A stretch of 35,906 bases of DNA from Chloroflexota bacterium (lineage in GTDB: Bacteria; Chloroflexota; Dehalococcoidia; DSTF01; JACRBR01). Location: the NCBI GenBank assembly GCA_028872875.1, contig JAGWOC010000028.1:1-35906 (forward strand), in the 5' to 3' direction. The notes beneath the pieces are model-generated. The model did not search any database. It had not been told where the DNA came from and saw only the letters and a list, made by a program, of their open reading frames with translations. Numbering within the stretch: position 1 is the stretch's first letter; every line of letters starts with the position of its first letter. Of the stretch, positions 2,736-35,906 are shown piece after piece. The translations under genes and the position numbers were made by a program.

Positions 2736-4226
2736 ATGCTCACGAGGTGGCTGCAGGATCAATCCGGAAGGACCGTCGTCGGCCTCGGGCTGAGCATCGC
2801 GCTCGTTGCTGGCTCGGTCTTGACGGCCGTCGCGCTCACCGCGGGCACCGCGCTGGCGTGGCACTACACCTACGGCTGCGACCAGAACGGCAACGTGGTC
2901 GGGACGATCACCTTCCCGAAGAACACGGCGCCGTTCTCCGTCATCCTGCAGGACCACGTGCCGGCCGACGCCCACTTCAAGGACGTCCCCGGCGCCACCG
3001 AGCTGATCACGCCCACCGCCAACCAGACCTCGGCACCCTTCACGCTGTCGACAGCAAACGTGCGCCCGGACGCGAACTCGCTGCGCATCGTCAACTCCGC
3101 CACGAACGAGAAGAGCGACAGCTTCCCGCCCTGCGGCGGACAGGTGTTGCCCACCGCCACGAGCACCGGCACGGGCACGGCCACCAGCACCGCAACAGCC
3201 GTCGCCACCAGCACGCCGTCTACGCAACCGTGCGAGACCGCCGGCGCGACGAAGACGCCCGAGTCCGGCGAGACGCAGACGCCGGAGGCAACGCAAACTT
3301 CCGAGTCCGACCACACGCACACGCCCGAGGCGGACAAGACGCAGACGCCGGAGTCCGAGCACACGCACACGCCCGAGGCGGACAAGACGCAGACGCCGGA
3401 GTCCGAGCACACGCACACGCCCGAGGCGGAGAAGACGCAGACGCCGGAGTCCGAGCACACGCACACGCCCGAGGCGACGGAGACCCCGGAACCGACTCAG
3501 ACCGCCGCACCCACGTGCACACCGCAGCCGACGCAGACCGCCGAGGCGACGCACACGCCGCAGGCGACGACGACGAACACCGCCATGCCGACGGCGACCA
3601 ACACCGCTGAATCGACCGAGACGCCGCAAGCCACAGAGACGCCGGAAGCTACGGAGACGCCGGAAGCGACGGCGACCAGCACGGCGATTCCCACGGCGAC
3701 CAACACATCCGTGCCGACGGCGACGAACACCGCCGTGCCGACGGCGACGAACACCGCCGTGCCGACGGCGACGAACACCGCCGTGCCGACGGCGACGAAC
3801 ACCGCCGTGCCGACGGCGACCAACACCGCCGTGCCGACGGCGACCAACACCGCCGTGCCGACGGCGACCAACACCGCGCAGCCGACGGCGACCAACACCG
3901 CGCAGCCGACGGCGACCAACACGGCAGTGCCGACGGCGACGAACACGGTTACGGTGCAGACCGCGACGAGCACCGTTACCGTCCAGACGGCGACGAGCAC
4001 GGCCGCTGCCGCCACGGCGACGCCGCCAGCACCGACGCCGACGCTCGTTTCCCTCGTCCTCGGCGCCACGCCGCCCGCGCGCGGCCGGCCGACGACGGGG
4101 CTGCCAAACACGGGCGTGGGCGCACTCGACAGCACGGGCGGGCGCATGCTGCTGGCGCTGCTCGCGCTCGCCGCGGCCGGCGGCCTGGCCGGCGTCGGAC
4201 TCGGGATGCGCCGCCGCAAGAACTGA
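2736..4226 (+). CDS. Secreted Thr/Pro-rich repeat protein with LPNTG sortase anchor
   Basis: A 496-residue surface protein. A basic N-terminus ([12 protein letters not shown]) and hydrophobic stretch at residues ~13-40 form a signal peptide. Residues ~42-145 are a small unrecognised domain (with GCDQNGN near its start and PPCGG near its end). Then come about 310 residues almost wholly of Thr, Pro, Ala, Glu and Asn: a 16-residue His/Thr/Glu repeat, then an 8-residue AVPTATNT repeat. The C-terminus has LPNTG at 456-460, a hydrophobic span and the tail RRRKN, a classic sortase cell-wall sorting signal. It is probably a stalk or mucin-like wall protein, a likely O-glycosylation target (inference). 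No sortase gene is in the window. Start ATG at 2736 has AGGGGAT a few bases upstream. A strong terminator follows. Confidence 0.85.
3303..3477 (+). repeat. 48-bp tandem repeat inside the LPNTG protein gene
   Basis: The string CACACGCACACGCCCGAGG recurs at 3312, 3360, 3408 and 3456, a period of exactly 48 bp (16 codons, unit of the form [16 protein letters not shown]). Copies are nearly identical at DNA level, so the array was expanded recently or is being homogenised. The unit is rich in His, Glu and Asp. Confidence 0.95.
3684..3947 (+). repeat. 24-bp tandem repeat (A[VQ]PTATNT) inside the LPNTG protein gene
   Basis: Eleven consecutive 24-bp units, starting at 3684, 3708, 3732 and so on to 3924, encode [16 protein letters not shown], six AVPTATNT, two AQPTATNT and one AVPTATNT. 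Differences are mostly third-base changes. Such units are common in Chloroflexota surface proteins. Confidence 0.95.
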
Positions 4227-5204: not shown

Positions 5205-5292
5205 GCGCGTCTCCTTGCCCTCGTCCAATATCCGCCGTTTGCCCAAGATTGTAGGGTTGGCGGACGGTCACGCGACAGTGCGGCCAGCGGCG

Positions 5293-20000: not shown

Positions 20001-20954
20001 CTGCTCCGCATCTTCAAGCGTACCCGCGAGACCGGCGAGAAGACCGAGCAGGCGCTCGAACGCACGCGCAAGGGCTGGTTCAGCGGCATCTCCGGCCTCT
20101 TCGACCGCGGCAAGATCGACGACGAGCTCTGGGACGAGCTCGAGGAACTGCTGATCGGCGCCGACAGCGGGGTCTCCACCACGCAGAAGATCCTCGGTGC
20201 GGTCCAGCAGCGCGTGGAGCGCGAGCGCATCAAGGATCCGGAGCAGGTGCGCCAGTGCCTGAAGGAGCAGCTCGTCGCCGTCCTCCGCGGCGGCGCCGCG
20301 AAGGGCCGCATCTGGGGCGAGGAAGACAGCCCGCCGCCGGATCGCCCATCCGTCATCCTCGTCGTCGGCGTCAACGGCACCGGCAAGACCACCAGCATCG
20401 CCAAGCTCGCCCAGTCCTACCGCGAGGAAGGCCAGAAGGTCGTCGTCGCGGCCGGCGACACCTTCCGCGCCGCCGCCATCGAGCAGATCAAGAGCTGGGG
20501 CGACGTCGTCGGCGCCGAAGTGATCGCCCACAAGCAGGGCGCCGACCCGGGCGCCGTGGTCTTCGACGCGCTCTCCGCCGCCGAGAGCCGCAAGGCCGAT
20601 GTCGTCCTCATCGACACCGCCGGCCGCCTCCACACCAAGTTCAACCTGATGGAAGAGCTCGGCAAGATCCGCCGCGTCATCGAGCGCAAGCTCCCCGAAG
20701 GCCCTGACGAGGTGCTGCTCGTCCTCGACGCCACCACCGGCCAGAACGCCCTCGTCCAGGCGAAGGCCTTTGCAGAGGTGGTGCCGATCACGGCGCTCTG
20801 CCTGACCAAGCTCGACGGCACGTCGAAGGGAGGCATCGTCTTCGCCGTCTCCGACCAGCTCCAGATCCCCGTGCGCTTCATCGGCACCGGCGAGCGCCCC
20901 GAGGACCTGACACCGTTCGACGCCGGCGAGTTCGTCGATGCGCTCTTCCGGTAG
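20001..20954 (+). CDS. ftsY: Signal recognition particle receptor FtsY, CTG start
   Basis: Membrane docking GTPase for SRP-bound ribosomes. 317 residues: a short basic N-terminus, the N domain (WFSGISGLFDRGKIDDELWDEL...), and the G domain with GVNGTGKTTSIAKLA (P-loop near residue 123), DTFRAAAIEQ, DTAGRLHTK, TKLDGTSKGG and GTGERPEDLTPFD. The N domain is coded well upstream of the first canonical start (a GTG at 20214), and between an in-frame TGA at 19923 and that GTG there is no ATG, GTG or TTG. A CTG at 20001 sits six bases after GAGGAGGT and is the best start. It lacks the long acidic A domain of Escherichia FtsY, as in many Gram-positive-type bacteria. Confidence 0.92.
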   Translation: MLRIFKRTRETGEKTEQALERTRKGWFSGISGLFDRGKIDDELWDELEELLIGADSGVSTTQKILGAVQQRVERERIKDPEQVRQCLKEQLVAVLRGGAAKGRIWGEEDSPPPDRPSVILVVGVNGTGKTTSIAKLAQSYREEGQKVVVAAGDTFRAAAIEQIKSWGDVVGAEVIAHKQGADPGAVVFDALSAAESRKADVVLIDTAGRLHTKFNLMEELGKIRRVIERKLPEGPDEVLLVLDATTGQNALVQAKAFAEVVPITALCLTKLDGTSKGGIVFAVSDQLQIPVRFIGTGERPEDLTPFDAGEFVDALFR

Positions 20955-21010
20955 GGGATACGCCAGCGCCCGGCGACGACTCGACATAACACTCATTGGC
21001 GCTCTCGCAG

Positions 21011-21315
21011 GCGGTCCGAGGCGGGTACTGGGCGGTGGGCGCGGGATCGCGCGGGCTGAAGGCCCGCGCTCCGGAGGCGGCGTGTCGGGCGCTGGGCGCG
21101 GGATCGCGCGGGCTGACGGCCCGCGGTCCGGAGGCGGCGTGTCGGGCGATGGGCGCGTGACCGCGCGGGCTGAAGGCCCGCGCTCCGGAGGCGGCGTGTC
21201 GGGCGATGGGCGCGGGATCGCGCGTGCTGAAGGCCCGCGGTCCGAGGCGGATACCGGGCGGTGGGCGCGGGATCGCGCGGGCTGAGGGCCCACGCTCCGG
21301 AGGCGGCGCTGCGGT
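21011..21315. repeat. Five-copy array of a 57-bp palindromic repeat
   Basis: The 413-base gap between ftsY and the next gene is mostly tandem repeats. Units beginning GGGCGCGGGATCGCGCGG start at 21037, 21094, 21151, 21208 and 21263 (periods 57, 57, 57, 55), with a partial unit before the first. Each holds a hairpin, CGCGGGC-TGAAG-GCCCGCG, and then the palindrome CTCCGGAG. Copies differ at several bases. The same unit occurs at 35786-35885. It resembles REP-type intergenic repeats. The array yields open frames in several phases, but these are not genes. Confidence 0.9.
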
Positions 21316-21352
21316 GGGCGGGCGAACTGACAGGCCGGTCCCTGACATGCGT

Positions 21353-21358
21353 TATGGT
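21353..21358 (+). promoter_or_regulatory. Possible -10 box of the DUF2298 gene
   Basis: TATGGT ends nine bases before the ATG at 21368, with CTGACA at 21327 as a distant -35 (20-base spacer). GAGG lies four bases before the ATG. Weak on its own; position is reasonable. Confidence 0.3.
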
Positions 21359-21367
21359 TGAGGACGC

Positions 21368-24085
21368 ATGAGCGAAACGCTTCGTTGGTGGCTGATCCTC
21401 CAGCTCACGGGCTTCTTCCTGCTGCCCCTGTGCCTCACCCTCTTCCGGCGGCTGCCCGATAGGGGATACGCGCTCTCCAAGCCGTTTGCGCTGCTCTTCC
21501 TGGGCTACGCGTTCTGGCTCCTGAACAGCCTCCGCGTCATCCCGAACTCGTCGGGCGGCATCGTCTTCGTGCTGCTCGCGCTCGCCGTGGTCGCCGGCGT
21601 CTTCGCCTACGTCCGGCGCGACGAGATGTGGGAGTGGGCGCGCGCGCACTGGCGCTACATCGCCGCCGTCGAAGCGCTCCTGCTCGTCGCCTTCCTCGTC
21701 GCGGCCTGGCTGCGCGCGCAGGTCGGCAGCATCGCCGGTACCGAGCAGCCGATGGACCTGATGTTCGTCAACGCCGCCACGCGCGCGTCCCACTTCCCGC
21801 CCCAGGATCCCTGGCTCTCCGGCCACACCGTCGCCTACTACTACTTCGGCTACCTGATCGTGGCGATGACCGGCCGCCTCGCCGGCGTCCAGCCCGAGGT
21901 CGCGTACAACCTGGGCCTCGCCATGACCGCCGCGCTCGCGCTCGTCGGCGCCGCCGGCGTCGCCTACAACCTGATCCGCCTGCACCAAGACGCCGCCGGT
22001 CCGGAGCCCCCTTCCGGTGGCGACGGCGCCCGAGGGATCCATCTCCCCGACGTGCCGTCGCTGCTCATCGCGCAGCGCTCCCGGCGCATGGCGCAGCCGC
22101 CGGCGCCCCCGCCCGTCACGGGCGCCGCACCCGTTCCCGCTGCCGTCGCGCCCGTCCGGCCGACGCCGCCTGCCGCCGCCGCCACCCTTGCCGCGCCTGG
22201 GCCGCGCCTCCCAGGAGGGGCGCATGGCTGGCGCGCGCCCGTCTTCGCGCTCGCCGGCGGGCTCATGCTCGTCGTGATGGGCAACCTGGTCGGCCTGCTC
22301 CAGTTCATGTCGGCGTACGGCATCGGCGGCAGCGGCTTCTACAAGTGGATCGACGTACAGGGGCTGACGGCCGGTATCCCGAGACACAGTTGGTATCCCA
22401 GCGCCTACTTCGGCTTCTTCAACGCCTCGCGCATCTACCCGCTCGACAACGCGCTGCCCGACAAGGGGCGCGTCATCACCGAGTTCCCGATGTTCAGCTT
22501 CATCCTCGGCGACCTGCACCCGCACGTCATGGCGCTGCCCTTCGTCCTGCTCGCCCTCGCGCTCGCGCTCACCCTGTACCGCAGCCGCGAGCCGCTCGAC
22601 ATCGCATTCTGGATCACGCACCCGCTCGTGCTCGTCGCCTCAGCCGTCGTGCTCGGCGCGCTCGCCTTCCTCAACACCTGGGATATCGCGACGCTGGCCT
22701 TCGTCGTCGTCGCCGCGGCCTCCGTCAGCAACTTCATGCGCGTCCGCCGGCTGACGCTCGACCTGCTCGTGCAGGTCGTCTCGTTCGCCGTGCCCCTGCT
22801 CTTGCTCGCGGTCGTCTTCTACCTGCCCTTCATCGTCTCGATATCCGGGAACTCGCAGGTCAACGGGCTCTACCCCGTCATCTCTGACCGCATCGTCTCC
22901 GTGCCGGGCACGCGGCCGGTGCACGCCCTGCTCTACTGGGGACCGCTGTTTGCCGTCGTGCTCCCCTTCGTCGCGAGCCGGCTCGCCGTCGCCCGCGACC
23001 GCATCTCGCTCCGCGGCATCTCCATCGCCGCCGCCGTGCCGATTGCGATCGTCGCCGCGTGGGCCGTGTACTTCGAGATCGTGCTCGCACCGGGGTTCCG
23101 TAGCGTCCCCCTCATCGGCACGCTGCTCGACAAGATCGCCGACCCGCGGAACATCCCCGGCGCGCACGGCCTCGCGGCGCAGATCGCCGACCGCGGCTCC
23201 GCGTGGTTCACCGACATCTTCTTCGGCGCCGCGCTCGCCACGGCGTTGCTCGCCCTCGGGCTCGAAGCCACCGCGAAGGACGATCGCGACCGGCGCGAGA
23301 GCGCCGTCTTCACGCTCGGCCTCATCGCGACGGCGCTGCTGCTCGTGCTCGGCACGGAGTTCTTTTACGTCGGCGACGTCTTCAACTCGCGCATGAACAC
23401 CGTGTTCAAGCTGTACTACGACGCGTGGCTGCTGCTCGCTGTCGCCGGCGGCTTCTCGCTCTTCCAGCTCGCGTCCTGCTGGCGGCCCGGCGTGCAGCGC
23501 GGGGCGGCGTACCGCTATGCGTGGGGCGCGCTCGCCGCCGTCTTCCTCGCCGCCGCCGCCCTCTACCCGATCGGCGGCACGATGGACCGCATCCGCCCCT
23601 ACGACGCCGCCGGCAACCTGATGAAGCCCGTCGACACCCTCAATGGCATCGCCTACTATCCGCCGGACGAGCTCAAGGCGATCGACTTCCTGAAGACGCA
23701 GGCCCAGGGCCAGCACCTCGTGATCGCGGAGGCCGTGGGCAACGACTACTCGTCCGCGGCCCGCATCTCCGGGGCGACGGGCATTCCGACGGTCATCGGC
23801 TGGGTCGGGCACGAGGCGCAGTGGCGCAGCGGCACGTGCACGGCGTGCGCCGGGCGCTTCGACGACGTGAACGAGCTGTACAAGACGGCCGACATGAGCC
23901 GTGTCACCGCCATCGTCCGGAAGTACGGCATCGACTACATCTACGTCGGGCCTCTGGAACGGCAGACGTACGGCGACGCCGCGCTTGCCAAGTTCCAATC
24001 GCTGCCGGTGGCGTTCCAACAAGGAACGGTTACGATATACCGGACAACGGCGACCCCTACCGGCGAGGTGCAGACGATCAGATGA
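21368..24085 (+). CDS. DUF2298 / YYY-motif multi-pass membrane protein (TIGR03662-like)
   Basis: 905 residues with many membrane spans. It carries the family name motif AYYYFGYLIVAMTG (residues ~155-168), the conserved GDLHPHVMALPF and the late block FYVGDVFNSRMNTVFKLYYDAW; the C-terminal soluble part contains HLVIAEAVGNDYSS and GIDYIYVGPLERQTYG. The family is found in Chloroflexota and archaea beside the TIGR03663 family, as here, and resembles GT-C sugar transferases; its reaction is not established. An approximately 80-residue Pro/Ala-rich insertion lies at about 205-290 between membrane spans. Its stop overlaps the next start (ATGA). Confidence 0.85.
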   Translation: MSETLRWWLILQLTGFFLLPLCLTLFRRLPDRGYALSKPFALLFLGYAFWLLNSLRVIPNSSGGIVFVLLALAVVAGVFAYVRRDEMWEWARAHWRYIAAVEALLLVAFLVAAWLRAQVGSIAGTEQPMDLMFVNAATRASHFPPQDPWLSGHTVAYYYFGYLIVAMTGRLAGVQPEVAYNLGLAMTAALALVGAAGVAYNLIRLHQDAAGPEPPSGGDGARGIHLPDVPSLLIAQRSRRMAQPPAPPPVTGAAPVPAAVAPVRPTPPAAAATLAAPGPRLPGGAHGWRAPVFALAGGLMLVVMGNLVGLLQFMSAYGIGGSGFYKWIDVQGLTAGIPRHSWYPSAYFGFFNASRIYPLDNALPDKGRVITEFPMFSFILGDLHPHVMALPFVLLALALALTLYRSREPLDIAFWITHPLVLVASAVVLGALAFLNTWDIATLAFVVVAAASVSNFMRVRRLTLDLLVQVVSFAVPLLLLAVVFYLPFIVSISGNSQVNGLYPVISDRIVSVPGTRPVHALLYWGPLFAVVLPFVASRLAVARDRISLRGISIAAAVPIAIVAAWAVYFEIVLAPGFRSVPLIGTLLDKIADPRNIPGAHGLAAQIADRGSAWFTDIFFGAALATALLALGLEATAKDDRDRRESAVFTLGLIATALLLVLGTEFFYVGDVFNSRMNTVFKLYYDAWLLLAVAGGFSLFQLASCWRPGVQRGAAYRYAWGALAAVFLAAAALYPIGGTMDRIRPYDAAGNLMKPVDTLNGIAYYPPDELKAIDFLKTQAQGQHLVIAEAVGNDYSSAARISGATGIPTVIGWVGHEAQWRSGTCTACAGRFDDVNELYKTADMSRVTAIVRKYGIDYIYVGPLERQTYGDAALAKFQSLPVAFQQGTVTIYRTTATPTGEVQTIR

Positions 24086-35486: not shown

Positions 35487-35762
35487 ATGCAACGACTGCA
35501 CGCCCGTGTTACCGGGCGTGTCCAGGGCGTCGGGTTCCGCGAGTACGTCCGGCACCAGGCCGTCACGCACGCGCTGACGGGCTACGTGCGCAACGATGAG
35601 GACGGCCACACGGTCGAGGTCGTGGCCGAAGGCGACGAGGCCGCGATCGAGGCCTTCCTCGAGGCGCTCCTCGACGGCCCGCGCTTCTCCCGCGTCGAGC
35701 ACATCGACTCATCGCTCAGCGAGGCGAGCCACGCCTTCTCCCGCTTCAGCATCGAGTTCTGA
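35487..35762 (+). CDS. acyP: Acylphosphatase
   Basis: A 91-residue acylphosphatase that hydrolyses carboxyl-phosphate anhydrides. The phosphate-binding loop and catalytic Arg lie in VTGRVQGVGFREYVRHQA, and the catalytic Asn in LTGYVRNDEDGHTVEVV. The end SRFSIEF is the typical final strand. Length is normal for the family. The ATG at 35487 follows AGAGGTGGG. It is divergent from fmt and followed by the 57-bp repeat. Confidence 0.95.
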   Translation: MQRLHARVTGRVQGVGFREYVRHQAVTHALTGYVRNDEDGHTVEVVAEGDEAAIEAFLEALLDGPRFSRVEHIDSSLSEASHAFSRFSIEF

Positions 35763-35785: not shown

Positions 35786-35885
35786 GCGCGCGACCGCGCG
35801 CGGGCTGAAGGCCCGCGCTCCGGAGGCGGCGTGTCGGGCGGTTGGCGCGTGACCGCGCGGGCTGAAGGCCCGCGCTCCGGAGGCG
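35786..35885. repeat. Two copies of the 57-bp palindromic repeat at the right edge
   Basis: The core CGCGGGCTGAAGGCCCGCG occurs twice, its GGGCTGAAG at 35802 and 35859, exactly 57 bases apart, each followed by CTCCGGAGGCG. Orientation and unit are the same as in the array at 21011-21315. The array may continue past the window. Confidence 0.9.
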
Positions 35886-35906
35886 CGTGCGCCGGAGGGC
35901 CGCGCG

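Follow-up and report, generated by a model that had tools for sequence, protein, structure and literature searches.

The tandem repeats found at two places in the window, i.e., the whole stretch of 35,906 nucleotides analyzed here (contig C81 of the source genome G000), very likely represent a REP family of the GTAG-tag superfamily that was dispersed by RAYT and then duplicated locally, head to tail. A REP-type element had been proposed in a preliminary description of this DNA, and this proposal is supported by the copy number of the repeat, its intergenic location, its foot tag, and the RAYT genes of relatives, which are flanked by the same stem. The source genome is a Dehalococcoidia MAG of 3.41 Mb in 234 contigs, 95.5% complete, and the closest named relatives of the FtsY protein from the window are Chloroflexi and Dehalococcoidia MAGs. 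The comparison set comprised eight members of the same bacterial family, namely, the source genome G000, its sister species G001, and the other relatives G002–G007.

Hairpin Arrays in the Window

The five-unit array (21030–21308, plus strand) lies between ftsY (20214–20954, plus strand, stop at 20954; TIGR00064, 323 bits) and a DUF2298/Chlor_Arch_YYY membrane protein gene (21368–24085, plus strand, assigned by family search). The second array follows acyP (35487–35762, plus strand, stop at 35762), identified by family search as an acylphosphatase gene, and both upstream genes are hence those named in the preliminary description. As also described there, all seven hairpins (five at 21049–21295 and two at 35798–35875) have the same stem and orientation and recur in a 57-bp unit, with the two arrays about 14.5 kb apart; TRF finds 4.9 copies of period 57 at 21030–21308 and 1.9 copies at 35797–35906.

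Each unit contains a 21-nt hairpin, GCGCGGGC-TGAAG-GCCCGCGC, with a predicted DNA folding energy of -12.6 to -12.9 kcal/mol (z from -2.3 to -3.5 for three core sequences). The window has 10 matches to GGGCTGAAGGCCC at two mismatches or fewer, compared to 1.64 expected, and none of 100 shuffles reached this number; the array units account for seven of these matches. The ftsY-side array opens with a first-unit leader that starts with a truncated hairpin end, GCGGTCCG (21011–21048, plus strand, delimited from the sequence and the leader block test), followed by hairpin 1 (21049–21069, from sequence and folding), which has the structure given above and the tag GGAG on the minus strand. The remaining hairpins, all on the plus strand, were delimited from the sequence. 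Units 2, 4, and 5 carry loop or stem substitutions: hairpin 2 (21106–21126) has the loop TGACG and the minus-strand tag GGAC, hairpin 4 (21220–21240) has one stem mismatch and is followed by a 55-bp spacing, and hairpin 5 (21275–21295) has the loop TGAGG and one stem change; hairpin 3 (21163–21183) conforms to the consensus. The 57-bp period, which had been called constant, thus holds for most units, but the spacings in the five-unit array are 57, 57, 57, and 55 bp.

The acyP-side array has a consensus first hairpin (35798–35818) and a second one (35855–35875), after which it is truncated because the contig ends. The terminal 110 nt of the window are 98% identical to the end of contig C140 in reverse complement, and the gene at the C140 end adjoins acyP in four relatives (G001, G003, G006, and G007), from which it follows that the acyP-side array continues on C140. 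The assembly broke inside this repeat (window 35797–35906 and locus L034), and REP arrays can cause such assembly gaps. Units 1–3 at 21051 are 91–98% identical to each other, and the unit at 35800 has 93% identity to them; since it is as similar to them as they are to one another, both arrays go back to a recent common source.

A second palindrome, CTCCGGAG, had been reported as a common feature of the units. It indeed follows three out of five units of the ftsY-side array and both units of the acyP-side one, but only nine out of 85 copies genome-wide, and hence was ruled out as a feature of the family. The arrays do not resemble CRISPR, as the spacers inside an array are nearly identical rather than unique. 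Elsewhere in the window, several overlapping tandem repeats with periods of 12–96 are seen at 3152–4002, within a long plus-strand reading frame.

Distribution in the Source Genome

The 15-nt core is found at 82 places of G000 with at most one mismatch (64 of them exact; 48 forward and 34 reverse), compared to four for the reversed control, and so further copies of the element do exist outside the window. The 21-nt hairpin, found at these 82 places, is thereby an imperfect palindrome of 20–40 bp at high copy number. The copies analyzed further were those in the loci fetched for these places, with at most two mismatches over 18 nt, which retained 85 copies and dropped six out of 91 (three or four mismatches). 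The 85 copies form 45 clusters, 26 of them single and 19 with two to nine copies. The largest array (L063, C139:11081–11780) has nine REP cores in units of 83–87 bp within one intergenic region.

All 40 pairs of neighboring copies within 300 bp are direct, and none is inverted. By eye, one diverged inverted partner was noticed on contig C213. The neighbor spacings range from 44 to 232 bp, and only 20 out of 40 are 55–63 bp, so that the 57-bp period is not universal: spacings of 55–63 bp occur in 12 out of 19 arrays, and the other seven have other periods with array-specific spacers. The information content is high across the hairpin and the next four or five bases and near background beyond.

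Despite 81% of the fetched DNA being called coding, 44 out of 45 clusters are intergenic, according to a simple codon-based gene caller written for this analysis. The only exception lies inside a gene that we take to be ileS, the name being assigned from the protein sequence. Many copies (those at L041, L043, L051, L062, and others), when inspected by eye, are followed by a conserved stretch GGTGA...TTCATCCGC...GGGTGGCGCC or similar. A T-box antiterminator, suggested by the GGTG...GGGTGGCGCC runs 3′ of many copies, was rejected, as Rfam yielded none in the 40 sources searched (a set outside which are L057, L058, L060, L061, and many overlapping loci).

Probable Gain and Expansion of Arrays Among Relatives

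The arrays are not identical in the relatives. The ftsY-side array is absent in all seven family relatives; at the orthologous site of the sister species G001, about 85 nt of unrelated sequence lie between flanks that are 95–97% identical. Likewise, no array is present at the acyP site of G001, where some 75 nt of unrelated sequence are found instead, with 94% identity at the acyP end and 92% at the C140 end. Neither is a clean empty site, as other sequence is present at both. REP arrays can thus arise between sister species with 92–97% identical flanking DNA.

The array structure also differs between species, which, together with the lack of arrays at both corresponding sites of G001, supports the tandem expansion suggested previously. 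As unit lengths vary from array to array, we infer that the hairpin was probably duplicated locally, head to tail, taking the adjacent DNA along. The ileS-like genes of the two sister species (L309 on G000 C179 and L310 on G001 C390) both contain two in-frame REP cores at the same place; the repeat units are 63 bp in G000 and 114 bp in G001, and the open frames are 1118 and 1134 aa, respectively.

Foot Tags and Loops

The hairpin-foot tag GGAG (in the TTCA orientation) is present in 67 out of 85 copies in G000. In whole genomes, the stem with GGAG is found 52 times in G000, 25 in G001, 26 in G004, 48 in G005, twice in G006, and never in G007, and the stem with GTAG is found 32 times in G005, four in G006, six in G007, and never in G000, G001, and G004.

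G005 therefore has both tags, and there the first loop base covaries with the tag, as tallied from the listed places of the stem-plus-tag pattern searches: with GGAG it is T in 42 copies, C in five, and G in one, and with GTAG it is C in 31 and T in one (Fisher p about 1e-15 for T against C, the copies not being independent of each other). Among the listed places, nearly all copies in G000 and G001 combine GGAG with C, and those in G004 mostly combine GGAG with A.

The cores differ as well. There are 64 exact TGAAG cores in G000, 28 in G001, 47 in G005, 10 in G007, and one in G004, with none in G002, G003, and G006; TGAAA cores number 76 in G006, 51 in G005, and 23 in G007. One locus of G007 (L302, contig C301) carries an array of GTAG-tagged hairpins, those with the loop CTTCA alternating with those having TTTTCA. 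In the sampled loci of G006, inverted as well as direct neighbors are seen; the loci of the relatives were partly picked for close copies, and direct and inverted spacings there are biased for this reason.

RAYT Genes and Their Hairpins

A RAYT-like transposase, for which the preliminary description proposed to look, is indeed encoded in the source genome, although its clade and its hairpins are different ones. The only Y1_Tnp gene of G000 (C128:4801–5130; 91.5 bits with the NCBIfam REP-associated tyrosine transposase model, cut-off 80) carries another hairpin in its flanks, GGACAGGTC-TTTA/TGAA-GACCTGTCC (L060:4687–4708 and 5227–5248; loops TTCA/TAAA on the plus strand), the core form of which has 11 exact copies in G000. 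Matches resembling the window core near this gene are at the chance level (three compared to 1.12 expected). These flanks and the chance-level matches rule the gene out as the cognate RAYT of the family.

Two relatives present a different picture. To the left of the RAYT gene of G006 (contig C28) lie two GCGCGGGC-TTTCA-GCCCGCGC hairpins at a distance of 114 bp from each other, and to its right lies the inverted GCGCGGGC-TGAAA-GCCCGCGC; the RAYT gene of G007 (contig C162) is flanked on both sides by co-oriented hairpins that have the GCGCGGGC stem and longer loops. The two proteins are mutual best matches with 48% identity, and the G006 protein is only 27% identical to the RAYT of G000. With the G007 RAYT as the query against the eight family members, this clade was found only in G006 and G007, the best matches elsewhere having at most 35% identity; in G000 and G001, the best match is the other RAYT, at 34–35%. 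G005, with its 47 exact TGAAG cores, yielded no Y1_Tnp match except for a weak fragment (E 1.3e-5), and G002 and G003 have neither TGAAG or TGAAA cores nor a Y1_Tnp match.

These comparisons rely on 71 out of 78 listed RAYT matches, the other seven not having been fetched as separate loci. A loose automatic rule, applied without a shuffle control, placed stem-matched hairpin pairs around RAYT genes at 45 out of 71 loci, and only clear cases in RAYT family f1 were used. In this family, two pairs look accidental (L102 and L103), and no pairs were found at L095 and L098. The flanking hairpins of L101 are co-oriented and have differing loops; for this reason they were missed by the pairing rule and were entered following inspection of the flanks.

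As the single RAYT of G000 is of a different clade and is accompanied by a different hairpin, the window family looks orphaned in this genome. Since no cognate RAYT was found in G000 or G001, and no Y1_Tnp match in G005, present RAYT-driven mobility is unsupported; in a MAG that is 95.5% complete and split into 234 contigs, a RAYT gene may be missed.

Origin of the Arrays

We suggest the following scenario. The family hairpin, GC-rich, with the loop NTTCA and, in the G000 lineage, the foot tag GGAG, would have spread in single-stranded form through the action of a RAYT/TnpA-REP, a Y1 HUH nuclease; members of the clade of this presumed enzyme are still adjacent to this stem in two relatives, but none was found in G000. 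Subsequently, judging from the repeat sequences, the hairpin with adjacent DNA would have been duplicated head to tail at about four in 10 sites, probably through slippage of replication at the hairpin or unequal recombination there, yielding array-specific units. The window itself contains two recent arrays with one common 57-bp unit. The simplest reading is that of a selfish or neutral repeat.

The same arrays could be produced by repeated head-to-tail insertion of a MITE-like mobile element, the unit being 57 bp or longer and consisting of the leader and the hairpin. Indeed, 17 out of 43 first units are preceded within 42 nt by a related leader, about 30 bp long, compared to 0 out of 43 and one out of 44 control stretches; besides, the two window arrays, 14.5 kb apart, share a 93% identical unit, and the 55–63-bp spacing recurs in 12 out of 19 arrays. 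However, by the same test the leader is missing from 26 out of 43 first units, seven out of 19 arrays have other periods and their own spacers, and neither terminal inverted repeats nor target duplications were delimited, so we consider such an element rather unlikely. A functional role at the RNA or transcription level, with the hairpins acting as attenuators or stabilizers of mRNA 3′-ends and the arrays being selected for, seems improbable. It agrees with the intergenic location of the clusters near gene ends, 10 out of 45 lying between convergent and 24 between co-directional genes, but at the co-directional sites the hairpin has the orientation of the genes in 13 cases and the opposite one in 11, 20900–21500 has no site resembling a terminator or a promoter, and the five-unit array taken as one RNA folds no better than shuffles (z -0.28). 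Moreover, none of the seven relatives has the array between the same two genes, and the Rfam search in 40 sources retrieved only three tRNAs, none of them a core copy.

The preliminary description also noted that the direct repeats flank a segment with glycan genes, which could be deleted or amplified by recombination between them. The units are suitable for that, being direct and 93% identical over 57 bp at a distance of 14.5 kb; still, the ftsY–acyP interval is kept in all three relatives that have both ends on one contig (G002, G003, and G006), and we regard a recombination hot spot as highly improbable. As the ftsY-side array is absent in these three genomes, the repeats on that side are younger than the interval and were gained after the split from these relatives. 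Compared to dispersal by RAYT followed by local duplication, a more autonomous history is a tentative possibility, with an orphan REP lineage that has lost its cognate RAYT, is no longer dependent on it, and keeps growing by hairpin-seeded, strictly head-to-tail local duplication, and the tag and the loop base co-switching between lineages. If so, each tag/loop pair would behave as if answering to a different enzyme.

Comparison With Known REP Systems

Many features of the family are familiar from the GTAG superfamily, whose REPs are defined by the foot tag and are known in Chloroflexi, e.g., GTAG-23 of T. roseum, which forms large clusters (Di Nocera et al., 2013, PMC3733652). Both are intergenic hairpins of 20–40 bp with an unpaired tag at one foot, both are associated with RAYT genes flanked by hairpins (here, in the relatives G006 and G007), and both form tandem clusters together with flanking DNA, occur in Chloroflexi, and have intragenic copies in tRNA synthetase genes (here, the putative ileS), which are among the intragenic GTAG REPs listed in that study (PMC3733652). 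Units of GTAG REP clusters are reiterated in tandem with flanking DNA of variable length, and a correlation between amplification and clustering has been suggested (PMC3733652). As such clusters have already been described, the window arrays belong to a known kind (PMC3733652). REPtrons can also be lost (PMC3733652). In contrast, the tag of G000 is mostly GGAG, which is outside the degenerate forms GYAG, GYRG, GTRG, GTMG, and GTGG listed in section 5 of the same paper (PMC3733652), no cognate RAYT was found for the G000 family, and the arrangement of copies is purely direct.

tnpAREP genes carry REPs of their own families in the flanks (Quentin et al., 2018, PMC6006769), and some TnpAREP proteins tolerate tag changes for binding, but less so for cleavage (PMC8266576). 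The RAYT genes of the relatives, with stem-specific hairpins on both sides and, in some cases, GTAG tags, are similar to these REPtrons (PMC6006769, PMC8266576). On the other hand, no RAYT of G000 has hairpins of the window family next to it. In REPINs and BIMEs, the copies form inverted pairs or alternate in orientation. The window family has short palindromic repeats dispersed with RAYT in common with them (PMC3116915), but its copies are arranged head to tail. REPs have been counted by RepRanger in Dehalococcoides mccartyi (PMC12306157); among the titles and opening parts of abstracts on palindromes or RAYT of Dehalococcoids, RAYT of Chloroflexi, and GTAG repeats of Thermomicrobium roseum, none deals with the window family.

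The clade is natural material for studying the joint change of REP tags, loops, and RAYTs, as it includes a genome in which a single stem has two tags with correlated loop bases, sister species that either have or lack the family, and ileS-like copies differently expanded in frame. Overall, the family is a further case of a largely known phenomenon; less usual are the direct orientation of all adjacent copies and the joint switch of the tag and the loop base in G005.
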